From: an uncultured Actinomycetes bacterium
Lineage (GTDB): Bacteria > Actinomycetota > Actinomycetes > Nanopelagicales > Nanopelagicaceae
NCBI GenBank assembly: GCA_903822425.1
Contig: CAIJOY010000031.1
Coordinates: forward strand, 1 to 64,000
Direction: 5' to 3'
DNA: 64,000 nucleotides
The notes beneath the pieces are model-generated. The model ran no database searches, was not told the DNA's origin, and saw nothing but the letters and a program-made list of their open reading frames with translations. The position numbers were made by a program, and so were the translations under genes. Shown one piece after another: positions 31,095 through 56,735 of this stretch (position 1 is its first letter; the number at the start of each line of letters is the position of its first letter).

Positions 31095-31922
31095 CTATCC
31101 ATAAATAGCGTCGCGACTCGTATTTCCTAAAATAGTCACCACTTCGAAACAACGCAGTGCTTGCTCCATCTTCTCGCACGTGTAGGTAACTTCGCGCGTT
31201 CCTGTTTGTTGTACGCCAGGAATATGCGTAGCAGCAATGACTTGATTCGCTGCTGCAAATTCGATGCGGAATGTGAATGGTCCCTTGAGCGGTTCTGGTT
31301 TACGCAAACGAGATAGACCATCGCGAGCAGCACTCTTGATGATCTCAAATGTCTTTTCAGGTGCAATGCACTCTGCAGTAAAACGATCTACACATCTTTT
31401 AACTGCAGCAAATCCTGCATCTGCTGCATACCGCTTAGCATCTTCAATCGTCAGATCATCTCCACTCACAAGAACAACAGGCACTCCAAGTTCTGCAGCA
31501 AAGAGTGCGTTCATATATCCCTCACTGCAAACCTCACCATTGAGCCATACTGCATTGTAAATATCCCCCGAGTAGGTATGGGACATGATTCCTTGCTGAC
31601 CTGCAGCAGTGTGATAGCCAATAAATGCCACTGCATCAGTGGACTTAGTGACCCCTTCGACCATGCAATGTTTCTTGTGCCTACCGGAAATGAGTGTCGC
31701 ACGTGGGTCTAGAAGATCGTAAACCACGTTGTGCATATTGGCGTGTGAATCATTCACGACAATATTGCGCGCTCCTGCTTCATAAAAACCTTCCACAGCT
31801 GCATTAACATCGGCAGTCATGATCTTTCGAAAGTGATCCCATCCTGGAGTACCAGGGTGAACATCTGCTGGTGAGGTAACTCCGCTAATGCCTTCCATAT
31901 CTGCTGAGATCAGAACGTTCAT
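31095..31922 (-). CDS. M55 family D-aminopeptidase (DppA-like)
   Basis: MNVLISADMEGISGVTSPADV, NDSHANMHNV, FIGYHTAAGQQGIMSHTYSG. Confidence 0.92.
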   Translation of the reverse strand: MNVLISADMEGISGVTSPADVHPGTPGWDHFRKIMTADVNAAVEGFYEAGARNIVVNDSHANMHNVVYDLLDPRATLISGRHKKHCMVEGVTKSTDAVAFIGYHTAAGQQGIMSHTYSGDIYNAVWLNGEVCSEGYMNALFAAELGVPVVLVSGDDLTIEDAKRYAADAGFAAVKRCVDRFTAECIAPEKTFEIIKSAARDGLSRLRKPEPLKGPFTFRIEFAAANQVIAATHIPGVQQTGTREVTYTCEKMEQALRCFEVVTILGNTSRDAIYG

Positions 31923-33373
31923 GCTTCCGCCTTCTTAACATTGAGGGTTTGAATACGTATAGGAGTGATGGGATTTAAGCGGATTTCACATCGCAGCGAC
32001 CCGCTTTTGCCTGGAATATCCCAAACAAAGTGCAACGGAGAATCCGAAGCAGTTTTTACTTCATTAAGCATTGATGAAGCACTGAGTCCGCCAACTTCAG
32101 CGATCAGCGCTGTGATGGAACTCTGTCGTTCGCCATACGGAACATCCATGTCAACATTTTCTTCAAAGATTTCATCTGCCAGAGTTGAGCTCCAATTACG
32201 AACAAGGAGATCAGCCTGCTTTGCTAACTCAAGTGTGTGTGGCCACTTATCCTCAAGTGGCAGCTCATACCCCATTTTCTCCAGCGCATAATCCAAGATT
32301 CCAGTGGCAGTTGCCCATGCACCCGAATACGTAGCATTCTCAAGAACAACAACAGAGAGTCCTGTTGGCACATGCCAGCGCATGTGAGAACTAAAGCCAG
32401 GATAGCCACCAGAGTGTGATACAAATTGACCATACTTTGGATCAAACTCCACGAAAAGTCCCAAACCATAACCAAAAGCACGATGTGCGTTTGAAGGAAC
32501 TGTTGCTAAGTGAGTATTAAAAGGCGATGAGGTCACAATTTGTTGCATGCTGTGGCGCGATTGAGCAGATAGCGGCCCAGAATTTTTAGCATTAGGAACT
32601 AAAGCCGAATGCATCCACTGTGCCCAGGTGCGCAGATCTCGTGCACTGCTAAAGAGTCCACCGATACATGAGAAAGCACCAGATGAAGTAAATGGCAATT
32701 CAAGCCAGTTTTCCCCGCTCTTTCGATAGCCAACAGCAACGCGATCTGGGGCAAAGAGTTCTTTATCGAAACCAGAACCACTCATGCCTAAAGGTTTCAA
32801 GATTTCGCTGGTAACAAATTCCCGGAAATCGCGGCCAGATGCTCTTTCAATTACTTGGCCCAAAAGTGCAAAACCTAAATTGGAGTATTGATATATCGCT
32901 CCTGGATTACTCGTGGTGTGCACACCGCGACTCACGATCTCTCGTAGTGCTTGCCCCGAAATTGATTCTTGCCGATCAGCCCATGGATCATCAGATGGCA
33001 ATCCCGATGACATGGCCGCAAGTTGGCCAACAGTAGGAATAGTTTTATAGGTGCTGATCTGGCTGAAGCGATACTCCTCCACAAAATCTGTGATCGGCTG
33101 ATTCAGATCAAGGGCTCCCCGATCACGCAATACCAGCAACGCTGCGATTGTAAAACTCTTGGTGCACGAGGCAATGCGAAAAGAAGTATCTGCAGTAGGT
33201 GCGCCTTGACCAACTTTGTACTGACCGATTCCTTTTTCTATAAGTACTTCTTCGCCTTGAAAGAGCGTGGCATAAATTCCGGGGCACTTGCCATCAATAA
33301 CTGGTTTGTTCATCAGCTCTTCAACGCCCTTTAAGAGTTCTTGATCTATCTTCACTCCGGACTTAGCACTCAT
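31919..33373 (-). CDS. Serine hydrolase of the beta-lactamase/S12 family (AmpC/DD-peptidase-like)
   Basis: FRIASCTKSFTIAALLVL (SxxK), YQYSNLGFALLGQVIE (YxN), FGYGLGLFVEF and HSGGYPGFSS. Confidence 0.88.
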   Translation of the reverse strand: MSAKSGVKIDQELLKGVEELMNKPVIDGKCPGIYATLFQGEEVLIEKGIGQYKVGQGAPTADTSFRIASCTKSFTIAALLVLRDRGALDLNQPITDFVEEYRFSQISTYKTIPTVGQLAAMSSGLPSDDPWADRQESISGQALREIVSRGVHTTSNPGAIYQYSNLGFALLGQVIERASGRDFREFVTSEILKPLGMSGSGFDKELFAPDRVAVGYRKSGENWLELPFTSSGAFSCIGGLFSSARDLRTWAQWMHSALVPNAKNSGPLSAQSRHSMQQIVTSSPFNTHLATVPSNAHRAFGYGLGLFVEFDPKYGQFVSHSGGYPGFSSHMRWHVPTGLSVVVLENATYSGAWATATGILDYALEKMGYELPLEDKWPHTLELAKQADLLVRNWSSTLADEIFEENVDMDVPYGERQSSITALIAEVGGLSASSMLNEVKTASDSPLHFVWDIPGKSGSLRCEIRLNPITPIRIQTLNVKKAEA

Positions 33374-33382
33374 CTAATCCTC

Positions 33383-34177
33383 CTAGTTTGCGTTTCGAAC
33401 GATTGCATCAAGTTTGGGCACAGCTGAAATCAATTGTCTTGTGTAGGCATGCTGAGGATTATCAAATAAAGAAAGTGTTGGGGAGGATTCCACAATCTCT
33501 CCAAGATTGATCACATTGACTCGATCACAGAGCAAGCGCACAATGGCAAGGTCGTGTGAGATAAAAAGAATTGAAAGTTTCAGTGAATCACGAAGATCCG
33601 AGAGCAAGTTAATAATCGAGGCTTGTACAGAAACATCTAGGGCAGATACTGCTTCATCTGCGATGAGAAATTGTGGGTTCAGGGAGAGAGCCCGTGCAAT
33701 AGCCACGCGTTGCCTTTGACCGCCCGACATTGCATAAGGGCGACTATCGAGCAAACTCTCTGGGAGTTTCACTAGTGAAAGAAGTTCTTTACAACGATCT
33801 AAACGTTTCTCCTTGGGAAGAACGTTATGTGTATCGAGTAGCTCAAAAATCGCTTGTTTCACACTCATGCGCGGATCCAAAGAGGAATACGGATCTTGGA
33901 AAATCATTTGCATCTTGCGTCGATCCTCTAGTGTGCGCACCTTTGGAAGGGCTTGCCCAGCATAGAAAAGCTCACCAGAGTTCTGTTTTTGCAAGCCGAT
34001 GGCAACCCGTGCCAAAGTAGATTTGCCGGAACCAGATTCACCGACAAGTCCAACAATTTCGCCCTCATTCACATCAAGGGATACCTTCTTGAGTGCATGT
34101 ACTTGGCTCTTATTCCGGCCACGACCAACATTAAATGTCACACTGACATCTCTGGCTTCAAATATTGGTTTACTCAT
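33383..34177 (-). CDS. Oligo/dipeptide ABC transporter ATP-binding protein (DppF-like)
   Basis: [57 protein letters not shown]. Start ATG 34177. Confidence 0.92.
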   Translation of the reverse strand: MSKPIFEARDVSVTFNVGRGRNKSQVHALKKVSLDVNEGEIVGLVGESGSGKSTLARVAIGLQKQNSGELFYAGQALPKVRTLEDRRKMQMIFQDPYSSLDPRMSVKQAIFELLDTHNVLPKEKRLDRCKELLSLVKLPESLLDSRPYAMSGGQRQRVAIARALSLNPQFLIADEAVSALDVSVQASIINLLSDLRDSLKLSILFISHDLAIVRLLCDRVNVINLGEIVESSPTLSLFDNPQHAYTRQLISAVPKLDAIVRNAN

Positions 34178-35150
34178 GAGAACTCGCACTCCAGAGGGCA
34201 TCTAAATCAGCAAATTCAAAAGGAGCAATCTGCCAACCAGGTTCGACGTTTGTCATGGGCGGTGCCAATTCTTGGGATCTTTGAGTCAAGGACGGCCCCG
34301 TGTTATCCAAACCTTTAAGGCGCTGAATAGGTCCATCAATGCGTGGAATCGCACTGAGCAAGGCTTTTGTATAAGGATGGCGAGGATGTGAAAAAACCTT
34401 ATTGATGTCATCTGCTTGCTCAACAATGCGGCCTGAATACATCACTGAAATTGCATCACATAATTCGGCCACCACACCGATGTCATGGGTGACATAAAGC
34501 AAGCTAACTTTGAGCTCGCTACGTAACTTCTTAAATAGTTCAATGATCTGGGCTTGGATCGTGACATCTAATGCAGTGGTTGGTTCATCACACAAAATCA
34601 GCTCAGGTCCACATGCCAAGGCAGCTGCGATCATCACGCGCTGTTTCATTCCGCCAGAGAGTTGGAAAGGGAAATCATCAACGCGTTTACTTGCTTCACG
34701 AATGCCCACTTGATCCATCAGATCAATGGCACGCTCTCTTGCTTGCTTGCGGTTGAGATCAGAATGCTGCATCAAACTATCTGTGATCTGCTTGCCAATT
34801 TTCATCACCGGATTCAACGCGACAGATGGTTCTTGGAAAACCATGGATATGCCGGTACCTAAAACACTCTTGCGATACTTGCCACCTTCGGCGAGTAAGT
34901 CTTGACCTTGGAACTTGATGACTCCCGATGTGACGCGAACATTTGCAGGCAAAAGCCCCATGATTGCTCGCAAAGTCAAACTCTTGCCAGATCCGGATTC
35001 ACCTACAAGCCCGCGTGCGTGACCCTCCGCAACACTAAAACTGATGTTGTCGATTGCAATGTAATCACGGCCAGCAATGCGAGCAACGATTTGAAGGTCC
35101 TCTACCTCTAATACGTTAGAAGTCATTGCTCCAGAATTCATGGCGTTCAT
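34170..35150 (-). CDS. Oligo/dipeptide ABC transporter ATP-binding protein (DppD-like)
   Basis: GLVGESGSGKSLTLRAIMGLLP, LSGGMKQRVMIAAALACGPELILCDEPTTALDVTIQAQ. Start reassigned to ATG 35150, overlapping the upstream stop (ATGA). Confidence 0.91.
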   Translation of the reverse strand: MNAMNSGAMTSNVLEVEDLQIVARIAGRDYIAIDNISFSVAEGHARGLVGESGSGKSLTLRAIMGLLPANVRVTSGVIKFQGQDLLAEGGKYRKSVLGTGISMVFQEPSVALNPVMKIGKQITDSLMQHSDLNRKQARERAIDLMDQVGIREASKRVDDFPFQLSGGMKQRVMIAAALACGPELILCDEPTTALDVTIQAQIIELFKKLRSELKVSLLYVTHDIGVVAELCDAISVMYSGRIVEQADDINKVFSHPRHPYTKALLSAIPRIDGPIQRLKGLDNTGPSLTQRSQELAPPMTNVEPGWQIAPFEFADLDALWSASSHE

Positions 35151-36007
35151 CGCTTTACCCGCAGTGCTACGGCAAGACCATCTCCGATAAAGGAAAGTCC
35201 CAAACTCGTGATCACAACTGCTAGCGCAGGCAGGATGGTCAACGCGTAATACCCGCCAGCTAAGAATTGTTGCCCCTCTGCGATCATGCGTCCCCAATCT
35301 GGCGTGGGTGGCACGATTCCTAAACCGAAATAACTCAATGTCACGATGACGCCGATATTGAGGACGATGTCACTCATCGCATAAACAATCGCCTGCGTAA
35401 TCACGTTAGGCAGAACATGGCGCGTAATGATTTTCTGGTTGGAAATTCCACCAGTTTGGGCTGCTTCAATGAATTCCTTGGAACGAACAATCATCGTCTC
35501 GGCACGCACGATACGAGCGTATGCAACCCAACTCACTAGTGAAATTGCAATGAATATGCTTCCTACGCCATTACCTAAAATGAAGACCAAGCTAATAACC
35601 AAAACATAAAAAGGAAATGCGACAACTACATCGGCAATACGCATCACCAAGGTATCTACCCACCCAGAGAAATACCCGCATATAGCACCTACCACTGTGC
35701 CGATAACGAAGGGTGCTAGAACTGCGATGGAGGCTAGAAATAGATCTGTACGCCCGCCATAAAGTAGGCGACTCCACACATCGCGCCCCAAGTTATCGGT
35801 ACCCAAGAAATGCTCGGCAGTGCCGCCTTGTAAAGTGTTGAGTAAATCTTGTGAAATAGGATCGAATTTCGTTAAATGGGAAGCCAGTACGGCCATCGCT
35901 ACTACTACAAAAATAATGAATATACCTAAATAAAGTCGGAAGTTATTAACGCGAAATCCCCTAAGACGGCTTAATATATTTGGTCGCAGGGAAAGTGAGG
36001 TACTCAT
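35147..36007 (-). CDS. Oligo/dipeptide ABC transporter permease (DppC-like)
   Basis: LGTDNLGRDVWSRLLYGGRTDL, SWVAYARIVRAETMIVRSKEFIEAAQTGG. Confidence 0.92.
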   Translation of the reverse strand: MSTSLSLRPNILSRLRGFRVNNFRLYLGIFIIFVVVAMAVLASHLTKFDPISQDLLNTLQGGTAEHFLGTDNLGRDVWSRLLYGGRTDLFLASIAVLAPFVIGTVVGAICGYFSGWVDTLVMRIADVVVAFPFYVLVISLVFILGNGVGSIFIAISLVSWVAYARIVRAETMIVRSKEFIEAAQTGGISNQKIITRHVLPNVITQAIVYAMSDIVLNIGVIVTLSYFGLGIVPPTPDWGRMIAEGQQFLAGGYYALTILPALAVVITSLGLSFIGDGLAVALRVKR

Positions 36008-36942
36008 TATTTAAACCTCGCCCGTGGGTCAAGGAGTGCGTACGACACATCCGTGAGCAAATAGACCAAAACTACGAGCATCGCAAAAGTCAGCGTTGCA
36101 CCTTGTATCACCGGGAAATCTCTATTCAAAATTCCCGTCATTAAAAAAGAACCCATCCCTGGAATTCCGAAAACATTTTCTATAACCAAAGAACCGCCTG
36201 CTAGGTATCCCACTTGAATTCCCAAAATACTAATTCCCGAAATGCTTCCGTTCCGTAACGCGTATTTCAACCACACCGAGCGATTTTTTAGACCTTTCGA
36301 ACGGGCGAATGCAACGTATTCACTATCCAAAGATTCGATCACTGAAGTACGCAAACTTCTCACCAATAGCGGCACTAGCCCCAAACCAATCGTGAGGCTG
36401 GGAAGAACAAGAGACCATAGGTGTTGCAAATTGGTCTCCCCGTATCCCCCAACCGGGAATATTTGAACTTTCAAAGCAAGAAACAAGATCCCCATAGCGC
36501 CAATAAAGAATATTGGCATTCCTAAGATCACTGCATTTAAAAGGCTCACAAGATGATCAATAAATTTGTCTTTACGTATTGCTGTCCAAATGGCCAGAGG
36601 AAGAGCAAAAATGATTCCAAAAAGAGAGCCCATGATCATCAACATCAGCGTTGGAGGTAATTTCAAGCTAATCAATTTAACAATTGTTTCATTGTAGAAA
36701 AGTGAGTTACCCAAATCGCCAGTAAAGAGACCGCCAATAAAATCTAGGTACTGCTGAGTGACGGGTTTATCTAAGCCCCATTGGTGATGCAGCGCGGCAA
36801 TCGCCGCAGGTTCTGGGTGATTGCCTAAATAAGTAAGAGCTGGATCTCCCGGAGTAGCATGCATCAAGAGAAAAGTAGCGGTGATGATGCCAAAAACGAC
36901 AGGTACTAAGAGTGCAATTCTCTTGATCAAGAACCGAGTCAT
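36007..36942 (-). CDS. Oligo/dipeptide ABC transporter permease (DppB-like)
   Basis: MTRFLIKRIALLVPVVFGIITATFLLMHATPGDPA; EYVAFARSKGLKNRSVWLKYALRNGSISGISILGIQVGYLAGGSLVIENVFGIPGMG. Confidence 0.93.
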   Translation of the reverse strand: MTRFLIKRIALLVPVVFGIITATFLLMHATPGDPALTYLGNHPEPAAIAALHHQWGLDKPVTQQYLDFIGGLFTGDLGNSLFYNETIVKLISLKLPPTLMLMIMGSLFGIIFALPLAIWTAIRKDKFIDHLVSLLNAVILGMPIFFIGAMGILFLALKVQIFPVGGYGETNLQHLWSLVLPSLTIGLGLVPLLVRSLRTSVIESLDSEYVAFARSKGLKNRSVWLKYALRNGSISGISILGIQVGYLAGGSLVIENVFGIPGMGSFLMTGILNRDFPVIQGATLTFAMLVVLVYLLTDVSYALLDPRARFK

Positions 36943-37058: not shown

Positions 37059-38609
37059 CTACTTTGACAACCAAACATTCCGGAAATTGTAATTTCCCGT
37101 TACGAATGGGTGGAAAGCTTGTACCTTGGTTGAGTACGAGTACAAGTTTGGTGCGTAGTACAAAGGCACCATTGGTTGATCGTTATCAAAGGCAACTTGG
37201 ATCTTGTCATAGATCGCTTTGCGCTTTGTTTGATTGTCAATGAGAACCGCGTCATTAGCTAACTTGGCACTCTTTTGATTATCGTAATAAGACCATAGCG
37301 ATGATCCGCCGCCATCGATGAGCCCTGTGAATCGAATCAATTCATCAGGATCGATGATGTCAGTGGTGTCATATCCGAACATGATGTCATATGACTTGTT
37401 ATCACGAGCTGCAGTCCATGCTGATGGATCTAGCTGACTGATCTGAAGAGTGACACCAATTTTGGCAGCTTCACTCTGGAGAATTTGAGCCATTGAGTTC
37501 TGATCAGCGTTTCCGGATGAAACCATGATGGTGGCGCTGAAACCGTTTGGTTGTGTTGAAAGTGCTAGTTCAGCTTTTGCCTTTGTTAAGTCATATGGCA
37601 AGCCCTTGATGCTGGCATTATGTGACCAAGATGAAGGAGACATGTAAGCACCAGCTGGAGTTCCATTACCAAACAGAACAGCTGTAATGATTGCTTTCTT
37701 GTCCACTAACGAAGCAAGTGCTTTGCGGACATGCACATCACTCAATGGCGCCTTGGTGTTGTTGAAAATCAAAAAGTTCACAGCACTGGAATCAAATGCC
37801 GTGACCTTTACGCCAGGAACGTTCTTAAGTGTCTTCACACTTGAAAAGGATGGGAACTCATTAATCTGAGCTTGTCCGCCTTGTACCTGGTTAGCGCGGG
37901 TATTTGCATCAGGAACCAATTTAAATGTTATTGAATCCAAATACGGTTTTCCAGCTTCCCAGTAGTAAGGGTTGCGGACAATCTTAATGAGTTGACCCTT
38001 AGTCCAAGTTGCTAATTTAAATGGCCCTGTTCCGATTGGATGTTTGCCAAATTCATCTTTTGTCTTACCACCGTAGTTATTAGGAATGATGGAATTGGCA
38101 AAGATAGCCATAACAGCAGGAAGTGGTGAGTAAGGAGTCTTTGTTGTGATCGTGACTGTCAATGGGTCTGGTGTTCCAATTTTAGAAATTGAGGAGTTAA
38201 TGAATCCCCAGTTACCAGCGGGATTTGAATTCTCCTGCAATGAAAACTTTACATCTTTGGAAGTCATTGGAGTGCCATCGGAGAACTTCACTCCGCTGCG
38301 AAGTTTGAAAGTCCATGTCAAACCATCTTTAGATGCAGACCATGATGTTGCAAGACTTGGCTTCAAGCTCTTGGCATCCGCTGCTGGTACTAAGAGTGTG
38401 TCGAAGATTTCTTCTACAACCCAGATACCTGCGTTATCAGGTGGGATGCTTGGAGTTAAACTTGATTCAAGATCACCGCGCAAGATTGTGAGATCTCCGC
38501 CTTTGACCGGTGTTGCAGCCGAGGCCACTTGTGAAAAAGTGAACGACACTGGCAGAGCAAGTGCAACAGTAACTGCAGTAACAAGCAGCTTCTTGGAAAC
38601 GATCCTCAT
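37059..38609 (-). CDS. Oligo/dipeptide ABC transporter substrate-binding protein (SBP1)
   Basis: Signal peptide; SBP_bac_5-type motifs WTFKLRSGVKFSDGTPMTSKDVKFSL, PIGTGPFKLATWTKGQLIKIVRNPYYW. Start ATG 38609 with GGAGAGG. Confidence 0.92.
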   Translation of the reverse strand: MRIVSKKLLVTAVTVALALPVSFTFSQVASAATPVKGGDLTILRGDLESSLTPSIPPDNAGIWVVEEIFDTLLVPAADAKSLKPSLATSWSASKDGLTWTFKLRSGVKFSDGTPMTSKDVKFSLQENSNPAGNWGFINSSISKIGTPDPLTVTITTKTPYSPLPAVMAIFANSIIPNNYGGKTKDEFGKHPIGTGPFKLATWTKGQLIKIVRNPYYWEAGKPYLDSITFKLVPDANTRANQVQGGQAQINEFPSFSSVKTLKNVPGVKVTAFDSSAVNFLIFNNTKAPLSDVHVRKALASLVDKKAIITAVLFGNGTPAGAYMSPSSWSHNASIKGLPYDLTKAKAELALSTQPNGFSATIMVSSGNADQNSMAQILQSEAAKIGVTLQISQLDPSAWTAARDNKSYDIMFGYDTTDIIDPDELIRFTGLIDGGGSSLWSYYDNQKSAKLANDAVLIDNQTKRKAIYDKIQVAFDNDQPMVPLYYAPNLYSYSTKVQAFHPFVTGNYNFRNVWLSK

Positions 38610-38670
38610 TTGAAACCAACCTCTCCTTGGTCTTGCCCCTGGGGCTACCCCCCGAGGAATTTCTTGCCCA

Positions 38671-38699
38671 TGTCTATTGGGGTTAATACCTGAAGTCAA
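38671..38699 (-). promoter_or_regulatory. SigA-type promoter of the SBP1-dppBCDF-S12-M55 operon
   Basis: Minus strand TTGACT-N17-TAGACA, upstream of SBP1. Confidence 0.55.
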
Positions 38700-38704
38700 T
38701 AGAT

Positions 38705-39862
38705 CTAACTCAGGAAATTAACGATCGTGGCCTTTAATACTTCAACAGTCTTCACGACTTCAGCTATTTCTACCCATTCATTGGGTGAATGCAAATTGCC
38801 ACCGGTTGGTCCAATAAGAACTGTCGGAACTCCAGCTGATTGCAAGAGTGCGGCATCGGTCCATGCATTCCAACCAATGTCTTGTATGGGCATACCTAAT
38901 ACTTCTTGCGTTGCCCCGTTAAGTGCCTTCAGCAGTGGTTCGCGACCCTGGCCCACAAATGGTTGTCTCTCCATTTTGATGTCAATCTTGGCACGAAAAT
39001 TTGGAAACTCTTTGCGCACTTCATCAAAAATCTTTTCGATATCACTGACACGATTTGCTAAGACTTCACCCGGTTGTGTCCCAATTTCAATTCCCAAAAC
39101 AGTCTGGCTTGGATAGGTCGCATAATCAGTGCCGCCATGAATCGTTGATGTATGGAAAACAGTTACGCCATTTCGTGCATCAGGATGTTTGCGCCATTGA
39201 GTTTCACTCAGGCGATGTAGGCCAAGGACTACAGCCGAAGCGTGAACAATGGAATCAATACCTTCCTCAGGTGCGCAACCATGTGATGCTTTTCCAAAGA
39301 TAGTGATATCGATCCAACCAAAACCTTGATGCTCGGTAACAACAGTAGGTAGAACTGAAGGTTCAATCACAATCGCTGCATCCATTTTGTGATGTTTGAT
39401 CAAGTGTTCGGTACCAATCGAAGCTGCTTCTTCATCGACGACGCACGCTAACAAAACATCGCCTTTAAGCCTTGTGCCACTTCGGACAAGGTCGCGAAGT
39501 GCCAGCATCGCTGCTGCGCACCCAGCTTTGTCATCGACAACCCCAAGTCCATACATGCGATCTCCATCGATCCACGGCTTGAGTGCAACATCTGCCCAAT
39601 TTTGATAACCCACGGTGTCGCTATGAGCATTAATACACAACGTTGGTCCAGATTCTGACCCACGCAAACGTGCCAACATATTAGGACGACCTGGCGTGAC
39701 TTCCTCCAGAGTTACTTCAACACCGGCCTTTGTGAGCCAATCTCCGATGAACTCGGCGATTGCTTTCTCACCCGAACCATCCTTGATTAACCATGGAGTA
39801 ACCGATTCGATTCGAACAAGTTGATCCAGTAAATCAATAACTTCTTGGCGGTCTGTTGTCAT
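38705..39862 (-). CDS. M20 family peptidase (ArgE/DapE/CPG2-like)
   Basis: LCINAHSDTVGYQNW, YGLGVVDDKAGCAAAMLAL, VVDEEAASIGTEHLI. Start ATG 39862 overlaps the kinase stop (ATGA). Confidence 0.9.
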   Translation of the reverse strand: MTTDRQEVIDLLDQLVRIESVTPWLIKDGSGEKAIAEFIGDWLTKAGVEVTLEEVTPGRPNMLARLRGSESGPTLCINAHSDTVGYQNWADVALKPWIDGDRMYGLGVVDDKAGCAAAMLALRDLVRSGTRLKGDVLLACVVDEEAASIGTEHLIKHHKMDAAIVIEPSVLPTVVTEHQGFGWIDITIFGKASHGCAPEEGIDSIVHASAVVLGLHRLSETQWRKHPDARNGVTVFHTSTIHGGTDYATYPSQTVLGIEIGTQPGEVLANRVSDIEKIFDEVRKEFPNFRAKIDIKMERQPFVGQGREPLLKALNGATQEVLGMPIQDIGWNAWTDAALLQSAGVPTVLIGPTGGNLHSPNEWVEIAEVVKTVEVLKATIVNFLS

Positions 39863-41316
39863 TTTTTCCACTTCATCCGTTCGGTGTCGTTGATATTTTT
39901 GCGTTGGATCCAATAAGCATCGGATCCATCATGCGGGAAAGTGCTTTCTAACTTCATCAAAGCATGTGAGATGTTCAACCCGATTGATTGCGCTGCAACT
40001 ATTGCTGCACCCAGTGCTGAACGATCGGGTTCTTGGCTGATGTTGGCTTCAATCGTGCGCTGGACAGCATTGGCTAATTGTTGGCGGAACCATGGATCAC
40101 TGGCACTCCCACCTGAAACACGAATAGACCCATTGTGCAAACCGATTTCATGCAGTGTTTGTATGCATCGCGCGCTTTCAACAAGAATGCCATCAATTAA
40201 TGATCGAGCGATTTCGGCGCTGGTGTGGCCCACATCTAAACCAGTGAGTGTTCCAGTCAAAGTTGGATCCCATAGAGCACCTTGCTCCCCCGGTGCCAGA
40301 TAGGGCAAAAATGTTGGTAGACGTGAATCATCTGCAGATATTGCCAAAGCGATCAAACTCTCTTCATCTTTAATGTTGAGCAAATTTGCAAGCCATCGAA
40401 TGGCACTACCTGTAGAGAGTAAATCCATTTCCAATCCCCAAGAATCACTATCCACCATTGGCGTGATCAAATATCGGTGTTGCACATCATGGATCGGTGT
40501 ATTGCTAATTCCCAAAATGATCGTACTTGTTCCGCCAACGTAGGCAATATCCCCTGGCGAATCAACACCCATACCAATCGCACCCAGCACCGAATCTGCA
40601 GCGCCAACGCAAACTGCAATATCTCCTTGCAGCCCCAGCGCATCTGCAGCTCTGGCAGTGATGGCAGAAGTGGTTCGTGATGATGCAATTTCCGGAAGTT
40701 CTAGCAGCTTTGAGGTAGTCAAATGTTTGGCGATAATTTCAAAATCCCATTCACCTGTATGGATATCAAAACATCCAAAGCCTGTTGCAGTGCTGGGATC
40801 GGTTAAGTATTTTCCCGTGAGATAAAAGAACAGGTAGTCCTTAGCTCCCAGCAACCGTGTAGAGCGAGCAATACGTTCAGGGTCCACTTTGCACAAGCGC
40901 GCCAACATAGGAAGCAAGTAGCGACCATCAACCCATTGACCAGTAATTTTATAAATATCATCAGCCCCGATGCCGTTGCGAAGTGCATCCCCCTCTGCTT
41001 CGGCTCGACCATCCTCCCACGTGATGGCAGCACCGACTGGGACGCCTTCTCCGTCAACTGTTACTAGCGTTGGCAACATTCCGGAAAGACCGATCGCTTT
41101 CCATTCTTGATCCCCGGTCGAATTTTTAATCTGCGCAACGATTTCTTTGACGCTAGATATCCAATCGCTGGGATTTTGTTCTGATGCCCCAAGTTCTGGA
41201 CGAGCGGTGGGATATTTCGAACTAGCGCGCGCAACAATCTCGCCTGCATCATTGATCGCAACAGCCTTAAGCCCTGAAGTTCCTAAATCAAGGCCTACGA
41301 TCAACCTATTGCTCAT
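39859..41316 (-). CDS. FGGY-family carbohydrate kinase (xylulokinase-like)
   Basis: LIVGLDLGTSGLKAVAINDAGEIVARAS; VSGGSASDPWFRQQLANA; WEDGRAEAEGDAL. Confidence 0.9.
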   Translation of the reverse strand: MSNRLIVGLDLGTSGLKAVAINDAGEIVARASSKYPTARPELGASEQNPSDWISSVKEIVAQIKNSTGDQEWKAIGLSGMLPTLVTVDGEGVPVGAAITWEDGRAEAEGDALRNGIGADDIYKITGQWVDGRYLLPMLARLCKVDPERIARSTRLLGAKDYLFFYLTGKYLTDPSTATGFGCFDIHTGEWDFEIIAKHLTTSKLLELPEIASSRTTSAITARAADALGLQGDIAVCVGAADSVLGAIGMGVDSPGDIAYVGGTSTIILGISNTPIHDVQHRYLITPMVDSDSWGLEMDLLSTGSAIRWLANLLNIKDEESLIALAISADDSRLPTFLPYLAPGEQGALWDPTLTGTLTGLDVGHTSAEIARSLIDGILVESARCIQTLHEIGLHNGSIRVSGGSASDPWFRQQLANAVQRTIEANISQEPDRSALGAAIVAAQSIGLNISHALMKLESTFPHDGSDAYWIQRKNINDTERMKWKK

Positions 41317-41340: not shown

Positions 41341-42711
41341 TTACTTATTGCGCGCAATTGCACTCAGAGCGCCTTGGGCTGCCTCAAGTGTCTTGTTAAT
41401 GTCATCTTCTGAATGAACCAGGGAAACAAAGAGATTCTCCAGGTGGTTAGGGTGGAATAGCACCCCTCTTTGTAACATTTCGCGATACCAACGAGTGAAG
41501 AGTTCCTCACTTGCAAACTTTTCTGCCTCGCGCCAGTTATGAATTGGTTTTTCAGAAAACCACATCTGGAAGACCGTACCGATACCTTCAACGATTACAG
41601 GAATTCCAACATCATTAGCGATTTTGGCTAAGCCATCAGTAAGTTTAAAACCAAGGTTGCGTTGGCGCTCATACAGACCAGGTTCTGCAAGAAGATCCAT
41701 CGTCGCAGAAACCGCTGCGCATTGAATGACGTTGGCGTTATATGTTCCAGAATGTGAATAGCGGCCTTCTGCAATGATGGACATGACCTCTTTGCTTCCA
41801 CCGATTGCTGCAACTGGAAAGCCTCCACCTAATCCTTTAGCAAGTGTGGTCAGATCCGGTGTGACGCCAAACCATTCTTGAGCCCCACCTCGCGAGAATC
41901 TAAATCCAGTAATGACCTCATCAAATATCAATAGCGCGCCGTACTTCTTGGTCTCTGAACGAAGTAGTTCAAGGTATCCCGGCAAAGGCATGATGCAACC
42001 AGTGTTGAGAACTGCAGGTTCTGTAATTACTGCAGCGACTTCATGACCGCGTTCTGCCATTACTTTGATGAAGCTTTCAGGATCATTCCAACTTAAAACA
42101 ATTAACGTATCTTCCAATTCAATAGGCACACCGGGTCCTGACGGGATTGCGCGAGGACGGCGAGCATCTCCGGCAGCTGCAGGATCCACGTGATTACTCC
42201 AATACACAGTGTCTTGCCAGCCGTGATAGTGACCTTCAAATCGAATAATCAATCGGCGCTTAGTGACAGCACGAGATATGCGGATTGCTGAGCCCACTGC
42301 TTCACTGCCCGAGTTGGTAAAGCGAACCATCTCAATGCCAGGAACTGCATCCACAACTTTCTGCGCAGCTTCAATTTCCAATTCATATGGCAAACCAAAA
42401 CAGGTTCCCAGCGATCGAACAGCTTCAACAACGGCCTCTGTTACAACGGGGTTTCTGTGACCCAAAATCATTGGCCCAAGGCCTAGGAGGTAGTCGATGT
42501 ATTCGTGGCCATCGATATCGGTAATTTTAGAACCTAAACCTTGAGCGATAAAAAGCGGATAAGGCTTCCAACCAAAGGGCACAGTGCGCGCACTGCTACC
42601 AGCCCCGCCTGGGATTACCTTGCTAGCTTTAGCAAAAGTTTCCCCAGAGTGTGGTGCCCATTGGGAATACTTCTGGAGAAAATCCGCATCTTCTGCTGCT
42701 CTCGAATTCAA
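41341..42711 (-). CDS. Class III aminotransferase, glutamate-1-semialdehyde 2,1-aminomutase-like
   Basis: PGGAGSSARTVPFG, YIDYLLGLGPMILGHRNP, FTNSGSEAVGSAIRISRAVTKR, LIFDEVITGFRF, LAKGLGGGFPVAAIGG. Confidence 0.9.
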   Translation of the reverse strand: MNSRAAEDADFLQKYSQWAPHSGETFAKASKVIPGGAGSSARTVPFGWKPYPLFIAQGLGSKITDIDGHEYIDYLLGLGPMILGHRNPVVTEAVVEAVRSLGTCFGLPYELEIEAAQKVVDAVPGIEMVRFTNSGSEAVGSAIRISRAVTKRRLIIRFEGHYHGWQDTVYWSNHVDPAAAGDARRPRAIPSGPGVPIELEDTLIVLSWNDPESFIKVMAERGHEVAAVITEPAVLNTGCIMPLPGYLELLRSETKKYGALLIFDEVITGFRFSRGGAQEWFGVTPDLTTLAKGLGGGFPVAAIGGSKEVMSIIAEGRYSHSGTYNANVIQCAAVSATMDLLAEPGLYERQRNLGFKLTDGLAKIANDVGIPVIVEGIGTVFQMWFSEKPIHNWREAEKFASEELFTRWYREMLQRGVLFHPNHLENLFVSLVHSEDDINKTLEAAQGALSAIARNK

Positions 42712-42854: not shown

Positions 42855-44405
42855 TTACTTAGACAACCAAACATTGCGTAGGTTGTAATTTCCAGTCACA
42901 TAGCTATGGAAATTTTGGACTTTCTTGGAGTATGAATACATCTCAGGTGCGTAGTAAAGAGGAACCATTGGAGCGTCAGCTTCGAATTGAACCTGAATCT
43001 TGTCATAGATGACTTTACGCTTTGCTTGGTCTTGAGTCTTCACAGCATCTGCTGCCCACTTAGAAATATTCTTATTGTCATAGTAGGAGAACAAGGAGAA
43101 TGCTCCACCTGTATAAACGGCGTCCACATTGATAATTTCATCTGGATCCATCATGTCTGTCGTAACAGGGACATAGCAGATATCAAATGTCTTATTCATG
43201 CGGGCATCATTCATCGCTGAAGGATCCAACTGTTGGATGTTCAATGTAACGCCAATTTGTGCTGCAGCATTTTGCATGATCTGCGCCAATGAGTTCTGAT
43301 CAACGTTTCCAGAAGCCACTGCAATATTTGCAGTCAAACCTGTTGGAGTTGTTGAAAGAGCTAATTCAGCTTTTGCTTTTGCAACATCAAATTCGCGACC
43401 CTTGATCGCAGCATTGTGTGCCCAACCTGATGGCCACATAAATGCTCCGGCAGGAGTTCCTGCGCCAGCCAAGATAGCGGTGTTGATTGCTTTTTTGTCG
43501 ATGACGTAAGCCAACGCTTTTCTCAAGTGAGGATCGTTGAATGGCGCCTTAGAGTTATTGAAAACCATAAACATTGTGGCGCTAGATGGGAATGCCGAAA
43601 CAGTTACTTTCGACTGACCCTTAAGGGCCTTAACGCTTGAATATGGTGGGAACTCATTAATCTGTGCTTGCCCACCAAGAAGTTGGTTGGCACGCGTATT
43701 TGAATCTGGAACCAAGTTGAAAGTGATTGAGTTCAGATATGGCTTGCCAGCTTCCCAATAGTAAGGATTTTTGACGAGCTTGATCTGTTGTCCGAGAGTC
43801 CACTTACTAATCTTGAAAGGACCAGTTCCAATTGGGTTCTTGCCAAACTCTTCTTGAGTTTTTCCACCATAGTTATATGGGAGAACAGAGTTAGCAAAAG
43901 TAGCAATCGCTGCTGGAAGTGGTGAATACGGATACTTTGTTTTGATCAATACAGTATCTGCGTTAGGTGTTGTAATTTTTGAAATAGAAGCGTTGAGGAA
44001 TCCCCAGTTACTGCCCTTTGTGTTTTCTTCAATAGAGAATTTGACATCCTTTGAAGTCATGGCAGTTCCATCAGAGAACTTCACTCCTTTGCGAAGATTA
44101 AATGTCCAGGTAAGGCCATCCTTAGATTGGCTCCACGTAGTTGCAAGGCCTGGCACAAGGGATTTGCCATCGGCTGCTGGGAATAGCAAAGTGTCGAACA
44201 ATTCCTCTAGCACCCAGATGGATGCATTATCTGGCGGAATGCTTGGCACAAGACTTGTTTCAATATCACCACGTACGACAACTAAGTCGCCACCTTTCAC
44301 AGGTGTACCGGCAGCAGTTGAGGGGCTAGGAATAATGAAGTTCAGCGATGTCACCAAGGAAAGGGCGAAAAACCCAGTCAATGATTTCTTAGTTAGCAAT
44401 TGCAT
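42855..44405 (-). CDS. Oligo/dipeptide ABC transporter substrate-binding protein (SBP2), paralogue of SBP1
   Basis: Signal peptide; VVRGDIETSLVPSIPPDNASIWVLEELFDTLLFPAADGKSLVPGLATTWSQSKDGLTWTFNLRKGVKFSDG; collinear with SBP1 along its length. AGGAG before ATG. Confidence 0.92.
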   Translation of the reverse strand: MQLLTKKSLTGFFALSLVTSLNFIIPSPSTAAGTPVKGGDLVVVRGDIETSLVPSIPPDNASIWVLEELFDTLLFPAADGKSLVPGLATTWSQSKDGLTWTFNLRKGVKFSDGTAMTSKDVKFSIEENTKGSNWGFLNASISKITTPNADTVLIKTKYPYSPLPAAIATFANSVLPYNYGGKTQEEFGKNPIGTGPFKISKWTLGQQIKLVKNPYYWEAGKPYLNSITFNLVPDSNTRANQLLGGQAQINEFPPYSSVKALKGQSKVTVSAFPSSATMFMVFNNSKAPFNDPHLRKALAYVIDKKAINTAILAGAGTPAGAFMWPSGWAHNAAIKGREFDVAKAKAELALSTTPTGLTANIAVASGNVDQNSLAQIMQNAAAQIGVTLNIQQLDPSAMNDARMNKTFDICYVPVTTDMMDPDEIINVDAVYTGGAFSLFSYYDNKNISKWAADAVKTQDQAKRKVIYDKIQVQFEADAPMVPLYYAPEMYSYSKKVQNFHSYVTGNYNLRNVWLSK

Positions 44406-44456: not shown

Positions 44457-44485
44457 ATGTTATACTGAGTATAGATAGGGGTCAA
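44457..44485 (-). promoter_or_regulatory. SigA-type promoter of SBP2 with a palindromic operator in its spacer
   Basis: Minus strand TTGACC-N17-TAACAT; plus-strand GTTATACTGAGTATAGA at 44459-44475. Confidence 0.72.
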
Positions 44486-44531
44486 TGCTCCAACACGCCT
44501 ATAGATCAAGCCTTAAATGAGCCTATCTCTC

Positions 44532-45344
44532 CTAGTTGAAGACGCCTTCGGTCAGTCCTCTGACGATCTGCTTCTGGGCCAAAGTGGAAAAAATCAGCAC
44601 CGGAATGACTGAGAGCAAGATCGCCGCACTGAGTTGATCCCATCGTAAAGCGGCATAACCCTTATATGCAGAGACCACGATCGGCACTGTCGGGTTTGAA
44701 GATGTGAGAGCAAGTGAGATGGTGACTTCATTCCAAACATTGATTGCCACCAATATCGCAACCGTTGCCACACCAGGTCGAATCAGCGGCAGGTAAATCC
44801 GGCGCAGTGTCACCCATTCACTGCAGCCATCAATTTTGGCAGCTTGTCCTAATTCCTCTGGAATCGTTTTAAAAAATGCCATCAGCAACCACATGCTCAG
44901 CGGTGCCATAAATCCTTGATAAGCAAGTGCCAGACCAATTGCAGTGTCATAAAGCCCCATGTTTTGCAGCACCGAATATAAAGGTAAGGCGATGATGAAA
45001 TCAGGAAAGAGATAGGCAACAAAGAACCAACCTAATAGCCCACTTTTTCTGCGTACTTGTCGCTTGGTCAAAATATATGCTGCAGGAATCGTGACCAAGA
45101 GAGCGATGCTCACGGTGAATAAACCAGTGGCAATGCTCATACGAGTTGCTGCTATGAAATCGCGATCAGACCAGACTGTTGAAAAAGCAGAGAAATTCGG
45201 GTGGTAAAAGAATTTAGGTTGGCCAAAAGATGCTGCTGGATCTTGCGTAGAGAGAATAAATATCCAATACAACGGCGCAATCGTTGCAATGAGTGCGCCA
45301 GCAATCGCGATGACCTTGGCAAAAGGCGAGATGAATTTAAACAT
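44532..45344 (-). CDS. Carbohydrate ABC transporter permease (MalG-like)
   Basis: MFKFISPFAKV start; IPEELGQAAKIDGCSEWVTLRRIYLPLIRPGVATVAI is the EAA loop. Confidence 0.92.
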   Translation of the reverse strand: MFKFISPFAKVIAIAGALIATIAPLYWIFILSTQDPAASFGQPKFFYHPNFSAFSTVWSDRDFIAATRMSIATGLFTVSIALLVTIPAAYILTKRQVRRKSGLLGWFFVAYLFPDFIIALPLYSVLQNMGLYDTAIGLALAYQGFMAPLSMWLLMAFFKTIPEELGQAAKIDGCSEWVTLRRIYLPLIRPGVATVAILVAINVWNEVTISLALTSSNPTVPIVVSAYKGYAALRWDQLSAAILLSVIPVLIFSTLAQKQIVRGLTEGVFN

Positions 45345-46242
45345 GGCGCCTGCGCCAACGAGCAATGCCCAACACACAGACCACTGCAAGAGCGGTAATA
45401 AATACATAGATGACCAGCATCGTCATGCTCATGCTCATCTGGCTGGCTTTAAATCCCGTGCGATATGCCAAGAGTTGAACAGATTCACTCGATTGTCCCG
45501 GTCCTCCCCCGGTTGCTCCATAGACCAAAGCAAAAAGCTTCAAGCAATCAATCGAGCGGATACCTGCCACGATAAAGATCAGCGGCAACATCAATGGCAG
45601 CGTTATATAACGAAAACTTTTCCATGCGGAGGCACCATCAATTTGAGCGGCTTCGAATGGATCCTTCGGAAGTGCTTGAAGCCCCGCACTTAAAATAATG
45701 AAGACAAATCCGGTTTGCCACCATGTATCCAGCCCTGCAACAGATGTCAGAACTATCTTGGGATCTCCCAAGAGATTCAAATGATCTATCCCTAAGTGAC
45801 CGAGCAATCGGGGAAGTACTCCAATGGTGGGATCCAAAATGATTTTCCATGTCAGAGATACTGCAATTCCAGAGACCATCAAGGGAGCAATCAATATGGA
45901 GCGCACCCACCCAGCATGCCTGCCGATTTTGTGAACTAAGAGAGCCAGAGCAAATCCAATGGTAGTTTCAAAGGTGACAGCCAAGACAGTAAAAAATCCC
46001 GTGCGCCACATGCTCGCCCAGTACTCATGGTTGGCAAAGACATCGGTGTAATTTCTTAGCCCAATAAAGGAGAAGCGATTACCCCAGTTCCAATTAAAGA
46101 AACTCATATAGATCGAGTAGATCAATGGAAATGCGGTGGCAAAGAAGAGCACGGCAACCAGCGGTGCAAGAAAGATCCAAGTCGGCGTATCCGAAGGACT
46201 CGTTCCTGCTTGCCTTGCTTGCCTAAACTTTGCCACCGTCAA
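45337..46242 (-). CDS. Carbohydrate ABC transporter permease (MalF-like)
   Basis: FLAPLVAVLFFATAFPLIYSIYMSF; LPKDPFEAAQIDGASAWKSFRYITLPLMLP. Confidence 0.92.
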   Translation of the reverse strand: MTVAKFRQARQAGTSPSDTPTWIFLAPLVAVLFFATAFPLIYSIYMSFFNWNWGNRFSFIGLRNYTDVFANHEYWASMWRTGFFTVLAVTFETTIGFALALLVHKIGRHAGWVRSILIAPLMVSGIAVSLTWKIILDPTIGVLPRLLGHLGIDHLNLLGDPKIVLTSVAGLDTWWQTGFVFIILSAGLQALPKDPFEAAQIDGASAWKSFRYITLPLMLPLIFIVAGIRSIDCLKLFALVYGATGGGPGQSSESVQLLAYRTGFKASQMSMSMTMLVIYVFITALAVVCVLGIARWRRRHV

Positions 46243-46247
46243 TTAAA

Positions 46248-47639
46248 TCACTTCATTAACGACTGCAAGCTCGCTTGAGCATCCTTCATGACTTGGGTTG
46301 GATTCTTTCCATTGGCCATCGCCAGAACCGCATCGACGACAACCAAGAGAATCGGTTCTGCGTCAGATTTGATCACAGCAGTTGGACGGGCAGTAGACAT
46401 TGCCTTCTGAACAGTCTTGACATAATCAGCATTTAGCTTTGAACTAAAAGAAGAAAGATCGGCAGATGATTGCCGTGGTGGTCCGCCAGTAAAAGCACCA
46501 ATTGCTGCGGTGTTTTCGCTATTGGTAAACCATTGAGTAAATAACCATGCAGCCTCTTTATGCTTACTGGCACTTGCAATGGCAATGCCCCAACTCCACA
46601 AACCAGTTCCGCCGCCGGCGGCACCAACTGGAAGTGGCATGTAACCAACTTTGCCGGCAATAGTGGACTTCTTTGCATCTTCAAAGCTAGGCCCAAAGAC
46701 ACTTGCATCTAGATAGAAAGCAGCTTTACCTTGAGTAAACAAGGTATTTGCATCTGGCCAATCAAGACTAAAACGATTTGGTGGGCCAGCAGAAATGAGT
46801 TCGGCATAATCGCTCAAACCTTTAACAATTGCCGGGTTGGTCAAACGAGGCTTATTCCATGCTCCGTCAAACCAGACGTTAAAGGGAAGTTCAATTTTTC
46901 CGCCATCGGCAGGCCATTCATTGAATACAAGCCCTGTTGGTGTATCAACAATTCCTGTTGCGCGCACGCCACGAACAACTGATCCAAAGACATCGCCTTT
47001 GCCTGCCTTGGTAATGAGTTTGGCATCAGCAATGAGCTCTGCCATTGTTGCGGGTACCTTGCCGCCCAAATACTTATCTACTAAATCTTTGTTATAAAAG
47101 AGTATGTAGCACTCAGTGGAAATTGGAACCCCGTAGAGCTGAGTTGAACTATCTGCACCAGGGAATTGCCCTGTTGCCAATACACCAGAGGGAAAGTCTG
47201 CCAAATTGTAATCTGGAGATGTCAACGCCGCATTATCAATAAACGGTGTGAGGGGCTCAACAAGGCCAGCATCTTTTTGCGTTGCAATCGTGTAATCCAT
47301 ACCGGTCATAAATACATCTGGAGATGTGGTGGTGCGGATCGCTTGGTTCATCTTGTCAAAATAAAGATCTTCACCGTAGGACTGCACATCAACAGTGATA
47401 CCTGTTGCATCCTGAAATGCTGCTAAACCTTGCTTCATCCCATTCGTCCAAGGATGCTCATCCATCAAAACTTGGATGCTGGTGCCTGAATACTTCTTCC
47501 AATCAAAGGCACCTGTGGCACCTGAGCCAGATGATGCCGAGTTAGATCCTGTTCCAGCACCGCAGGCACTGAGAGCAAAGACCGCTGTGGTGATAAGTGC
47601 AACTGCACGAAACTTTCGGCTTGCGAAGTTCTTGATCAT
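46248..47639 (-). CDS. Carbohydrate ABC transporter substrate-binding lipoprotein
   Basis: Lipobox VFALSACGAG; WTNGMKQGLAAFQDATGITVDVQSYGEDLYFDKMNQAI; WLFTQWFTNSENTAAIG. Start ATG 47639 with GGGAGAGG. Confidence 0.92.
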   Translation of the reverse strand: MIKNFASRKFRAVALITTAVFALSACGAGTGSNSASSGSGATGAFDWKKYSGTSIQVLMDEHPWTNGMKQGLAAFQDATGITVDVQSYGEDLYFDKMNQAIRTTTSPDVFMTGMDYTIATQKDAGLVEPLTPFIDNAALTSPDYNLADFPSGVLATGQFPGADSSTQLYGVPISTECYILFYNKDLVDKYLGGKVPATMAELIADAKLITKAGKGDVFGSVVRGVRATGIVDTPTGLVFNEWPADGGKIELPFNVWFDGAWNKPRLTNPAIVKGLSDYAELISAGPPNRFSLDWPDANTLFTQGKAAFYLDASVFGPSFEDAKKSTIAGKVGYMPLPVGAAGGGTGLWSWGIAIASASKHKEAAWLFTQWFTNSENTAAIGAFTGGPPRQSSADLSSFSSKLNADYVKTVQKAMSTARPTAVIKSDAEPILLVVVDAVLAMANGKNPTQVMKDAQASLQSLMK

Positions 47640-47656
47640 GATGACCTCTCCCACTC

Positions 47657-47705
47657 GTTATACTGACTATAACTTGATTAAAGCGCAGCCAATTTAGGCT
47701 GTCAA
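47657..47705 (-). promoter_or_regulatory. SigA-type promoter plus palindromic operator at the sugar SBP gene
   Basis: Minus strand TTGACA-N17-TTTAAT (47677-47705), operator GTTATACTGACTATAAC at 47657-47673 near the expected transcription start. Confidence 0.77.
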
Positions 47706-47758: not shown

Positions 47759-48556
47759 TCACCCTTGAAGTGGTTTCACGCTCCAGTCATCAACTCCTGG
47801 AAAGCCCAGCAGTTTATGTTCTTTAGAGCCTGAGACATAAAAGATAAAACGTCGTGCAGGGTATGTCTGTTGAAAACAGTCAAAAGGAATTCCATTTTCA
47901 TTAAAACTCACGCCTTTAACTGTCACGGCCATCTCGCGAGCCGGCAAGTTTAACCACGATCGCTCAAGGGAATCTGGCAGTGATACTTCTAGGTACTGTT
48001 CCTCTGAATGATCAACAATGCCGTGCTTATCTGCCAAGAACTTATACAGGGACCCACCTTTTGCTAAAAGCTTTTCATCAAGGGACGGAACCATATGCAG
48101 CGGCAAGATCGCACGCTCAACTATTGCAGGCTCACCTGCAACACGGCGCCCACGGACAACTTCCCAGACCGGGTTACCCTCTTCAATGCGTAGTGTCTTT
48201 GCAATTGTTGATCCTGGCAATCCCACACGCAAACTTATCAGCTCGGTTGTTAAATCATTGGTGGAGTTACCTTCACCCAAAGTTGCAAGCAGATCGCCCA
48301 ATCGCGACGGCTCACTTTTAATACGCGGCTGTGCAACGAAGGTACCAATACCTTGGTGGCGCTGAATAATGCCTTCACGCTCTAACTCATCTAGTGCCCT
48401 GCGCACAGAAATCAAACTCACATTAGCCAGCGATGTTAACTCTGTCGTGGCTGGTAATCGATCTCCCGGTTTCAACTTCTGGCTCGCAATGAGCTTGATG
48501 ACAAACTCCTTGACTGCTTCATAGCGCAGTTGTTTCGGAGCCTCTTTGTTACCCAT
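47759..48556 (-). CDS. GntR-family regulator, HutC/UTRA subfamily
   Basis: LKPGDRLPATTELTSLANVSLISVRRALDELEREGIIQRHQGIGTFVAQPR wHTH followed by UTRA-like domain (NPVWEVVRGRRVAGEPAIVERAILPL). Start probably ATG 48556. Confidence 0.9.
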   Translation of the reverse strand: MGNKEAPKQLRYEAVKEFVIKLIASQKLKPGDRLPATTELTSLANVSLISVRRALDELEREGIIQRHQGIGTFVAQPRIKSEPSRLGDLLATLGEGNSTNDLTTELISLRVGLPGSTIAKTLRIEEGNPVWEVVRGRRVAGEPAIVERAILPLHMVPSLDEKLLAKGGSLYKFLADKHGIVDHSEEQYLEVSLPDSLERSWLNLPAREMAVTVKGVSFNENGIPFDCFQQTYPARRFIFYVSGSKEHKLLGFPGVDDWSVKPLQG

Positions 48557-51500: not shown

Positions 51501-51534
51501 CAGGTCGGGGACCTGAGAACAGGTTTTATTTTCT
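51501..51534 (+). terminator. Terminator-like hairpin with a competing upstream hairpin
   Basis: ACCTG-AGAA-CAGGT followed by TTTATTTTC; alternative CAGGTC-GGG-GACCTG at 51501-51515. Confidence 0.6.
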
Positions 51535-51888
51535 TGGGTTTACGTTTGCCCACAGATCTAATTCGACAAGAGCCTTACGAGGAAGTTCAACGACTGCCAC
51601 TGTAGTTCTAACCGGCCGTGGTTCATTGAAGAAATCTATCCAAATTTCGTTTACTTCTGCGAGCTTTTCTAAAGAGGTAAGGTAAAGATTGGCTTTGAAA
51701 ACATCATGTCTGGTGCACCCAGCATCCTTAAGGATTAGTTCAGCATTTTTGAGAGCGGCTTTCAATTGCTCTAAGACACCGCCCTCGACTAGCGATGCGC
51801 CATGTTGATCAGGGAAAAGTCCTAAGGCTCCTGATGTAACAACAATTCCATCAATCTTTCTAAAGAGTGAATAAGGTTTTTGAGACAT
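51526..51888 (-). CDS. RidA (YjgF/YER057c/UK114) family protein
   Basis: VVTSGALGLFPDQ, QLKAALKNAELILKDAGCTRHDVFKANLYLTSLEKLAEVNEIWIDFF, VRTTVAVVELPRKALVELDLWA. Confidence 0.9.
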   Translation of the reverse strand: MSQKPYSLFRKIDGIVVTSGALGLFPDQHGASLVEGGVLEQLKAALKNAELILKDAGCTRHDVFKANLYLTSLEKLAEVNEIWIDFFNEPRPVRTTVAVVELPRKALVELDLWANVNPRK

Positions 51889-51904
51889 AACTTAGCAGCC
51901 TCTA

Positions 51905-53131: not shown

Positions 53132-53844
53132 TTACTCTTTCTCCCTTTGCTCTTCGGCTTTACGTCTTCTGGTTGCTCAATAATTACATCTTCAACTGGA
53201 ATGTAGTGATGCTTAAGTGCTTGCCTGATCTCCTGTGGTTTCTTCCCTTTTAAAACTTCTAGTAACTCTTTGTGCCGTGTTACTACTTCTTTTAAATCAA
53301 TCTTCTGCGAATCCATAGAGGAGCGCATCAAGCTTCCCATTTGCCCATCTAGCGTATGCCAAAGCTGCTGAATTCGCTCTCGCCCAGCTAGGTTGACGAT
53401 CAGACTGTGAAATTCGGTATCCAAATAAACCAAAGAGGCAAGATCTTGGGCTTTTGCTGCCGCAGACATCTGGTCAATAATAGTTTCAAATTCTGAAACT
53501 AGTTCTTGTGAAAGGGTTATCGAATTACCTTCAACAGCACTTGACTCTAAAAAGTAACGAGCAAAACATGCTTCTGCGATCGCTGTCTTACTCATACGCG
53601 TCACGTAAGCACCGCGCCTTACTGAAATCTCGATTAGACCCTGTGCACGCAGCTCTGTGAGAGCGGAACGTAGAGTTGTACGGCTAATGCCATATTCGGC
53701 AGCCAATTTCGCTTCTAACAGACGCTCTCCGGCAACGAAATCATTATTTAATATCCGTTTTCGGATTTCACTCTGCACTGCTTGCGGAAGTGAAATATGT
53801 TGAATTACATTTTTTTTGGTCACCTTAAGTTGCCTTACCACCAA
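53128..53844 (-). CDS. GntR-family regulator (FCD-like)
   Basis: LPQAVQSEIRKRILNNDFVAGERLLEAKLAAEYGISRTTLRSALTELRAQGLIEISVRRGAYVTRM wHTH plus a helical C-terminal domain (YLDTEFHSLIVNLAGRERI). Confidence 0.88.
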   Translation of the reverse strand: MVVRQLKVTKKNVIQHISLPQAVQSEIRKRILNNDFVAGERLLEAKLAAEYGISRTTLRSALTELRAQGLIEISVRRGAYVTRMSKTAIAEACFARYFLESSAVEGNSITLSQELVSEFETIIDQMSAAAKAQDLASLVYLDTEFHSLIVNLAGRERIQQLWHTLDGQMGSLMRSSMDSQKIDLKEVVTRHKELLEVLKGKKPQEIRQALKHHYIPVEDVIIEQPEDVKPKSKGRKSK

Positions 53845-55563: not shown

Positions 55564-55592
55564 CGTAATCTCTCCAACTTTCTTTTTTTAAG

Positions 55593-56723: not shown

Positions 56724-56735
56724 TTTTTTCTCCTT

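Follow-up and report, generated by a model that had tools for sequence, protein, structure and literature searches.

Two regulators of the GntR/HutC group offer the closest comparison for the locus described here. NagR/YvoA represses GlcNAc utilisation in Bacillus subtilis, and DasR is the master regulator of aminosugar uptake in Streptomyces. In NagR, Arg38 and Arg48 contact guanines, two per half-site, and the effector phosphate is bound by Arg133, Arg135, and Ser165-Ile166-Tyr167 (PMC4333415).

The window, which is the whole 64,000-nucleotide stretch of DNA analysed, encodes a proposed repressor of this group at 47759..48556 on the minus strand. The original prediction described it as a HutC/UTRA-type GntR protein, and both domains score above their Pfam cut-offs: an N-terminal GntR winged helix-turn-helix (PF00392, 60.1 bits, cut-off 27, E 1.6e-16) and a C-terminal UTRA domain (PF07702, residues 102-237, 91.9 bits, cut-off 23.8, E 4.1e-26). 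It is the sole UTRA protein in the genome. The same two domains are found in NagR, which it matches across nearly the full length in phmmer (E 2.8e-12), and in DasR, its best PDB match (E 1.5e-13). Like NagR, it would control importer and catabolic genes via dyad sites at promoters, and like DasR it is actinobacterial and would govern importers; unlike that of DasR, its regulon appears small and local, with two strong genomic sites. NCBIfam models for the TreR, HutC, and PhnF/PhnR types match its UTRA architecture (E 5e-19 to 5e-23). However, the scores lie far under the curated cut-offs (82 versus 212 for TreR, 78 versus 220 for HutC, and 69 versus 157 for PhnF), and an equivalog assignment was rejected.

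The counterparts of the NagR phosphate-binding residues (R135, R137, and S169-L170-Y171) are invariant in all seven aligned orthologs, so the regulator carries the effector-phosphate residues of NagR/DasR-type proteins; the wing glycine, Gly69, is also kept. This invariance suggests that the effector is likely phosphorylated. The two guanine-reading arginines of NagR/DasR-type proteins are absent. In NagR numbering, position 38 is Thr, Ser, or Ala and position 48 is Leu or Ser in all seven orthologs, whereas DasR retains both arginines. Their absence agrees with the lack of a customary GG/CC core and is the reason that the predicted operator differs from the usual HutC kind. Its TATAC-N3-GTATA core is an odd-centred palindrome lacking the GGTC/GACC core of NagR/DasR sites, whereas the dre site of NagR contains guanines and has 6-nt spacing (PMC4333415).

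Palindromic sites, promoters, and genes of the locus

The two sites are GTTATACTGAGTATAGA (44459-44475) and GTTATACTGACTATAAC (47657-47673) as read in the window; on the coding, minus strand they correspond to predicted operator 1, TCTATACTCAGTATAAC, and predicted operator 2, GTTATAGTCAGTATAAC. The 17-mers agree at 14 of 17 positions, which bears out the original description of them as near-identical. The second had been called an almost perfect palindrome, and 7 of its 8 dyad positions do pair, as compared to 6 of 8 in the first. A search of the window allowing 3 mismatches returns these two places only, against 0.20 matches expected, and none of 100 shuffles reaches the count. Across the 1.43 Mb genome, no other place comes within 1 mismatch of TTATACTNAGTATAA, and the runners-up have 3. 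Thus, the genome-wide search leaves two strong sites, both at these promoters, and the prediction stands. Dyad sites at promoters presumed to be regulated, the feature expected of HutC/UTRA operators, were in this way found computationally. No matching site was found when the region 5' of gntR itself was searched, and autoregulation of gntR is unsupported.

Site 1 had been placed within the spacer of TTGACC-N17-TAACAT (44457..44485, minus strand), the promoter of the SBP2a operon, which was recovered by promoter scan and in the sequence; it overlaps both the spacer and the -10. Site 2 had been placed just 3' of TTGACA-N17-TTTAAT (47677..47705, minus strand), the promoter that serves the sugar ABC operon, which was read off the sequence itself. 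It starts 3 nt past the -10 and covers the expected transcription start. The promoter scan returns fewer promoter-like sites than shuffled sequence does and, of these two promoters, lists only that of SBP2a; a T at position 2 of its -10 kept the other off the list. Therefore, the promoter assignments draw on position and conservation. At the sugar ABC promoter of the related locus L083, TTGACA, the -10, and the operator are kept, and L084 retains TTGACA, with TTTACT as its -10 and a degenerate operator. In both, the spacer between the hexamers diverges more than the hexamers and operator. The spacer of the SBP1 promoter also holds a short dyad, AGCC-N6-GGCT (47683-47699), which reaches into the -35. 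CC/GG-type dyads occur at the same place in L083 and L084, and the dyad is possibly a second regulatory site.

All genes of the locus lie on the minus strand, in the order gntR, SBP1, two permeases, site 1, SBP2a, and then the aminotransferase through M55, with gntR upstream of operator 2 and ending 85 bp from it. The sugar ABC operon (44532-47654) encodes SBP1, a sugar-type solute-binding protein (SBP_bac_1; 46248..47654, with a likely ATG start near 47639 judging from the GAGAGG before it), and two permeases, one MalF/UgpA-like (45337..46242) and one MalG/UgpE-like (44532..45407). It has no ATPase gene of its own, so the importer presumably borrows a shared ATPase from elsewhere. The second operon opens with SBP2a, a peptide/opine-type binding protein (SBP_bac_5; 42855..44405). 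The HemL/GSAM-like class III aminotransferase (41341..42711), the most conserved enzyme of the cluster, is followed by a xylulokinase-like FGGY carbohydrate kinase (39859..41316), an M20 ArgE/DapE-family deacylase (38705..39862), and SBP2b, a second SBP_bac_5 protein (37059..38699). Next come a Dpp-type ABC transporter with two permeases and two ATPases (33383..36942, from open reading frames and homology to DppBCDF-type genes of relatives), a beta-lactamase-family hydrolase (31919..33373), and an M55 D-aminopeptidase of the DppA type (31095..31922), at which the operon ends, adjoining a LexA-like gene.

A second transport and catabolism cluster neighbours the locus (51526-58612). It contains a RidA-like protein, an aminotransferase, an FCD-type GntR protein (53128-53844), two adjacent DUF4438 paralogs, a Gfo/Idh oxidoreductase, and Dpp-type permeases. 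The FCD-type regulator is without an ortholog in the 20 other genomes of the genus, and the cluster may therefore be a recent acquisition.

Conservation of the sites and gene clusters

Orthologs of the regulator were searched for among relatives and at the levels of family, order, class, and phylum; one further locus, L052, came from a contig scan (L053, listed with it, is the contig of G491; L048 is a short contig). The orthologs stand well apart from other UTRA proteins in these searches. Their clusters, spread over several actinobacterial families, contain GntR, the class III aminotransferase, the FGGY kinase, SBP_bac_5, and DppBCDF-type genes, often with M20 and beta-lactamase-family genes; the sugar ABC genes are absent from them, and the L072 cluster lacks a close aminotransferase. 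In most of these clusters, aminotransferase identity is 70-90%, as compared to 43-63% for the FGGY kinase. The aminotransferase is thus far better conserved than its neighbours and may define the pathway.

The original prediction linked the adjacent UTRA regulator to both sites, and this link is strongly supported in silico, having withstood tests capable of overturning it, by the recurrence of the operators in the ortholog clusters. At the distant loci, searches at up to 2-3 mismatches gave little outside nearer relatives, and direct promoter reading and half-site ranking were then used. Sites lie 5' of the aminotransferase in L049-L051 (ATATGCAGAGTATAA), L052 (TTATGCAGAGTATAC), L067 and L068 (GCATGCAGAGTATAA), and L066 (GTATACAGAGTATGA), with more degenerate ones in L071 and L073. 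Among the promoters examined, no convincing site was found in L070 or L072, or 5' of this gene in L069; L070 shows a loosely similar GTATAGGAAACATAC 5' of its aminotransferase. Further sites occur at the SBP start in L052 (TTATGGTGAGTATAG), L049 and L050 (TCATGGTCAGTATAG), L067 and L068 (TAATGGTGAGTATAG), and L073 (TCATGGTGAGTATGC), and TTATACTGAGCAGAC lies 91 nt upstream of it in L066. The sites of distant relatives are degenerate. The core drawn from nineteen sites is NATRSWSAGTATR, its right half being much better conserved.

For the ranking, each seven-base half-site was modelled as half, N, and reverse complement, and TTATACT was derived from the window alone. By summed match in 17 held-out promoter windows, TTATACT ranks 1 of 16,384, with 160 against a mean of 135.6 (sd 4.9) for all half-sites. 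A Fisher combination of background p over the non-redundant windows gives about 1e-11, a value that assumes independence though the clusters are related. The SBP genes of L049, L052, L067, L071, and L073 are seemingly transcribed with little or no leader, and at these loci the operator overlaps the SBP start codon (ATGGTNAGTAT) and hence also coding sequence. Part of the conservation at several SBP sites could therefore be coding.

Within the genus, 4 of 21 genomes have the exact 13-bp pattern TATRCWGAGTATA, each with a single copy located at the cluster. They are exactly the genomes with a GntR ortholog, as compared to none of the 17 others (chance 1.7e-4). Because sites in three of these four genomes supplied the R and W letters of the pattern, what is informative, and independent, is that it is missing from the 17 others and from everywhere else in the four. 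This restriction of the motif to GntR-bearing genomes, alongside a single UTRA protein in the genome, further favours the link between regulator and sites.

Two relatives, G009 and G014, carry SBP1 orthologs at about 80% on contigs other than their GntR contigs. Both are draft assemblies of many contigs, so this separation tells us no more than that the assembly did not join the loci. The order at this locus is SBP1, two permeases, SBP2a, M20, SBP2b, and Dpp genes, continuing in G009 with a beta-lactamase-family hydrolase, M55, and an S58 peptidase. The S58 (DmpA-type) peptidase closes the G009 operon (L086:7022-8152), and none was seen in the window operon. GntR, the aminotransferase, and the FGGY kinase were not found in the sugar-ABC stretches read in either genome, nor was a regulator among the genes scanned upstream of the locus in G009. 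The operators remain recognisable here with no GntR nearby, clearly in G009 and partially in G014, which adds to the support for the predicted link. In G009, the SBP1 -10 is followed by TTTATAATCAGTATAAC, and GATGCTGAGTATAA lies at the -10 of SBP2a; in G014, the SBP2a site is clear and the SBP1 site, AATAGTAGGTATACC, is degenerate. The operator 2 core is kept at 11 of 13 positions in L083 and 9 of 13 in L084 (degenerate), and operator 1 is conserved in position in both (12481 and 12714). Around the sites, flanking sequence has diverged at both promoters. The window has GntR 5' of SBP1, with the aminotransferase and FGGY kinase placed between SBP2a and M20. Set beside G009 and G014, the window has the look of one regulon whose two parts have merged, and the change would presumably have run from the split state of the relatives to the merged state of the window.

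Proposed regulon and competing explanations

The two operons appear to form a single metabolic regulon and not to be unrelated. It is a well-evidenced local regulon, with a known kind of regulator, an atypical operator, and an ordinary type of regulation. The adjacent GntR-type repressor almost certainly reads both sites. From sequence, we infer GntR binding, repression rather than activation, and the identity of the effector. Very probably, the sites are GntR/UTRA operators through which a dimer represses both co-oriented operons, with release probably by a phosphorylated intermediate, most likely the FGGY product. By covering the -10 and spacer at the SBP2a promoter and the start region at the sugar ABC promoter, the dimer would shut off two sets of genes: SBP1 with its two permeases, which make up a sugar-type ABC importer, and the operon of SBP2a, aminotransferase, FGGY kinase, M20 deacylase, Dpp-type importer, and hydrolases. 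A phosphorylated pathway intermediate would lift repression, and the conserved FGGY kinase offers a natural source of it. The enzymes are consistent with a route in which an amine would be freed from an acylated or peptide-like compound and transaminated, and the product phosphorylated. A substrate that is acylated or contains D-amino acids, and that yields an amine for the aminotransferase, is suggested by the peptide-type uptake system together with the hydrolases of the M20, M55, and beta-lactamase families.

The geometry of the two sites is unlike, one lying in the spacer and -10 and the other over the start, as might be expected if GntR mainly activates or acts oppositely at the two promoters. 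However, both sites overlap RNA polymerase contacts, where HutC-type proteins such as NagR and DasR usually repress, and the aminotransferase promoter site of L049-L051 coincides in part with a TATAAA element immediately 5' of the start codon. Either mode is unlikely.

It is quite improbable that another regulator, such as the FCD-type GntR protein (53128-53844) or an unlinked TetR or LacI protein, reads the sites while the UTRA protein controls something else. The odd-centred palindrome without a GGTC/GACC core, a GntR protein without the matching arginines, and a second complete GntR protein 5 kb away would all suit such a reader. Half-site spacing, however, already differs between NagR (6 nt) and FadR (5 nt) (PMC4333415), and the motif and UTRA regulator occur together in 4 of 4 versus 0 of 17 genomes and across families, a co-occurrence that unlinked regulators of other families would need to match. 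The FCD-type protein, which is the one complete GntR protein that the genome has besides the UTRA regulator, was rejected as the reader because G009, G010, and G014, all of which keep the operator, lack its ortholog. Short AT-rich palindromes resembling -10 elements do arise by chance, but a functionless chance or duplicated pair has a negligible likelihood and is already contradicted by the comparative sequence data, given the shuffle and genome counts, the held-out ranking, and conservation of both G009/G014 promoter sites amid diverged flanks.

The proposed repression of both operons by the UTRA regulator can be extended, tentatively and with some doubt, to a broader proposal. A UTRA clade that lacks the guanine-reading arginines and uses a TATAC-N3-GTATA code of its own may run an undescribed actinobacterial pathway, from an acylated amine or peptide-like compound through an amine and a keto sugar to a phosphosugar, with the FGGY product as inducer. 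The recipient operon, controlled in relatives from another contig, would have taken in the regulator and two enzymes in the streamlined genome studied here. Literature searches found no matching description among UTRA operators and nothing on an FGGY/class III aminotransferase cluster.

These results provide a regulator, the code of its operator, and a set of conserved genes for a putative catabolic route in several families of Actinobacteria. Because it lacks both base-reading arginines and has a shifted operator, this regulator is a test case for specificity change among GntR proteins. The operator code makes the regulon findable in other genomes, and the list of candidate nutrients is shortened by having importers of the peptide and sugar types under a single regulator that probably senses phosphate.
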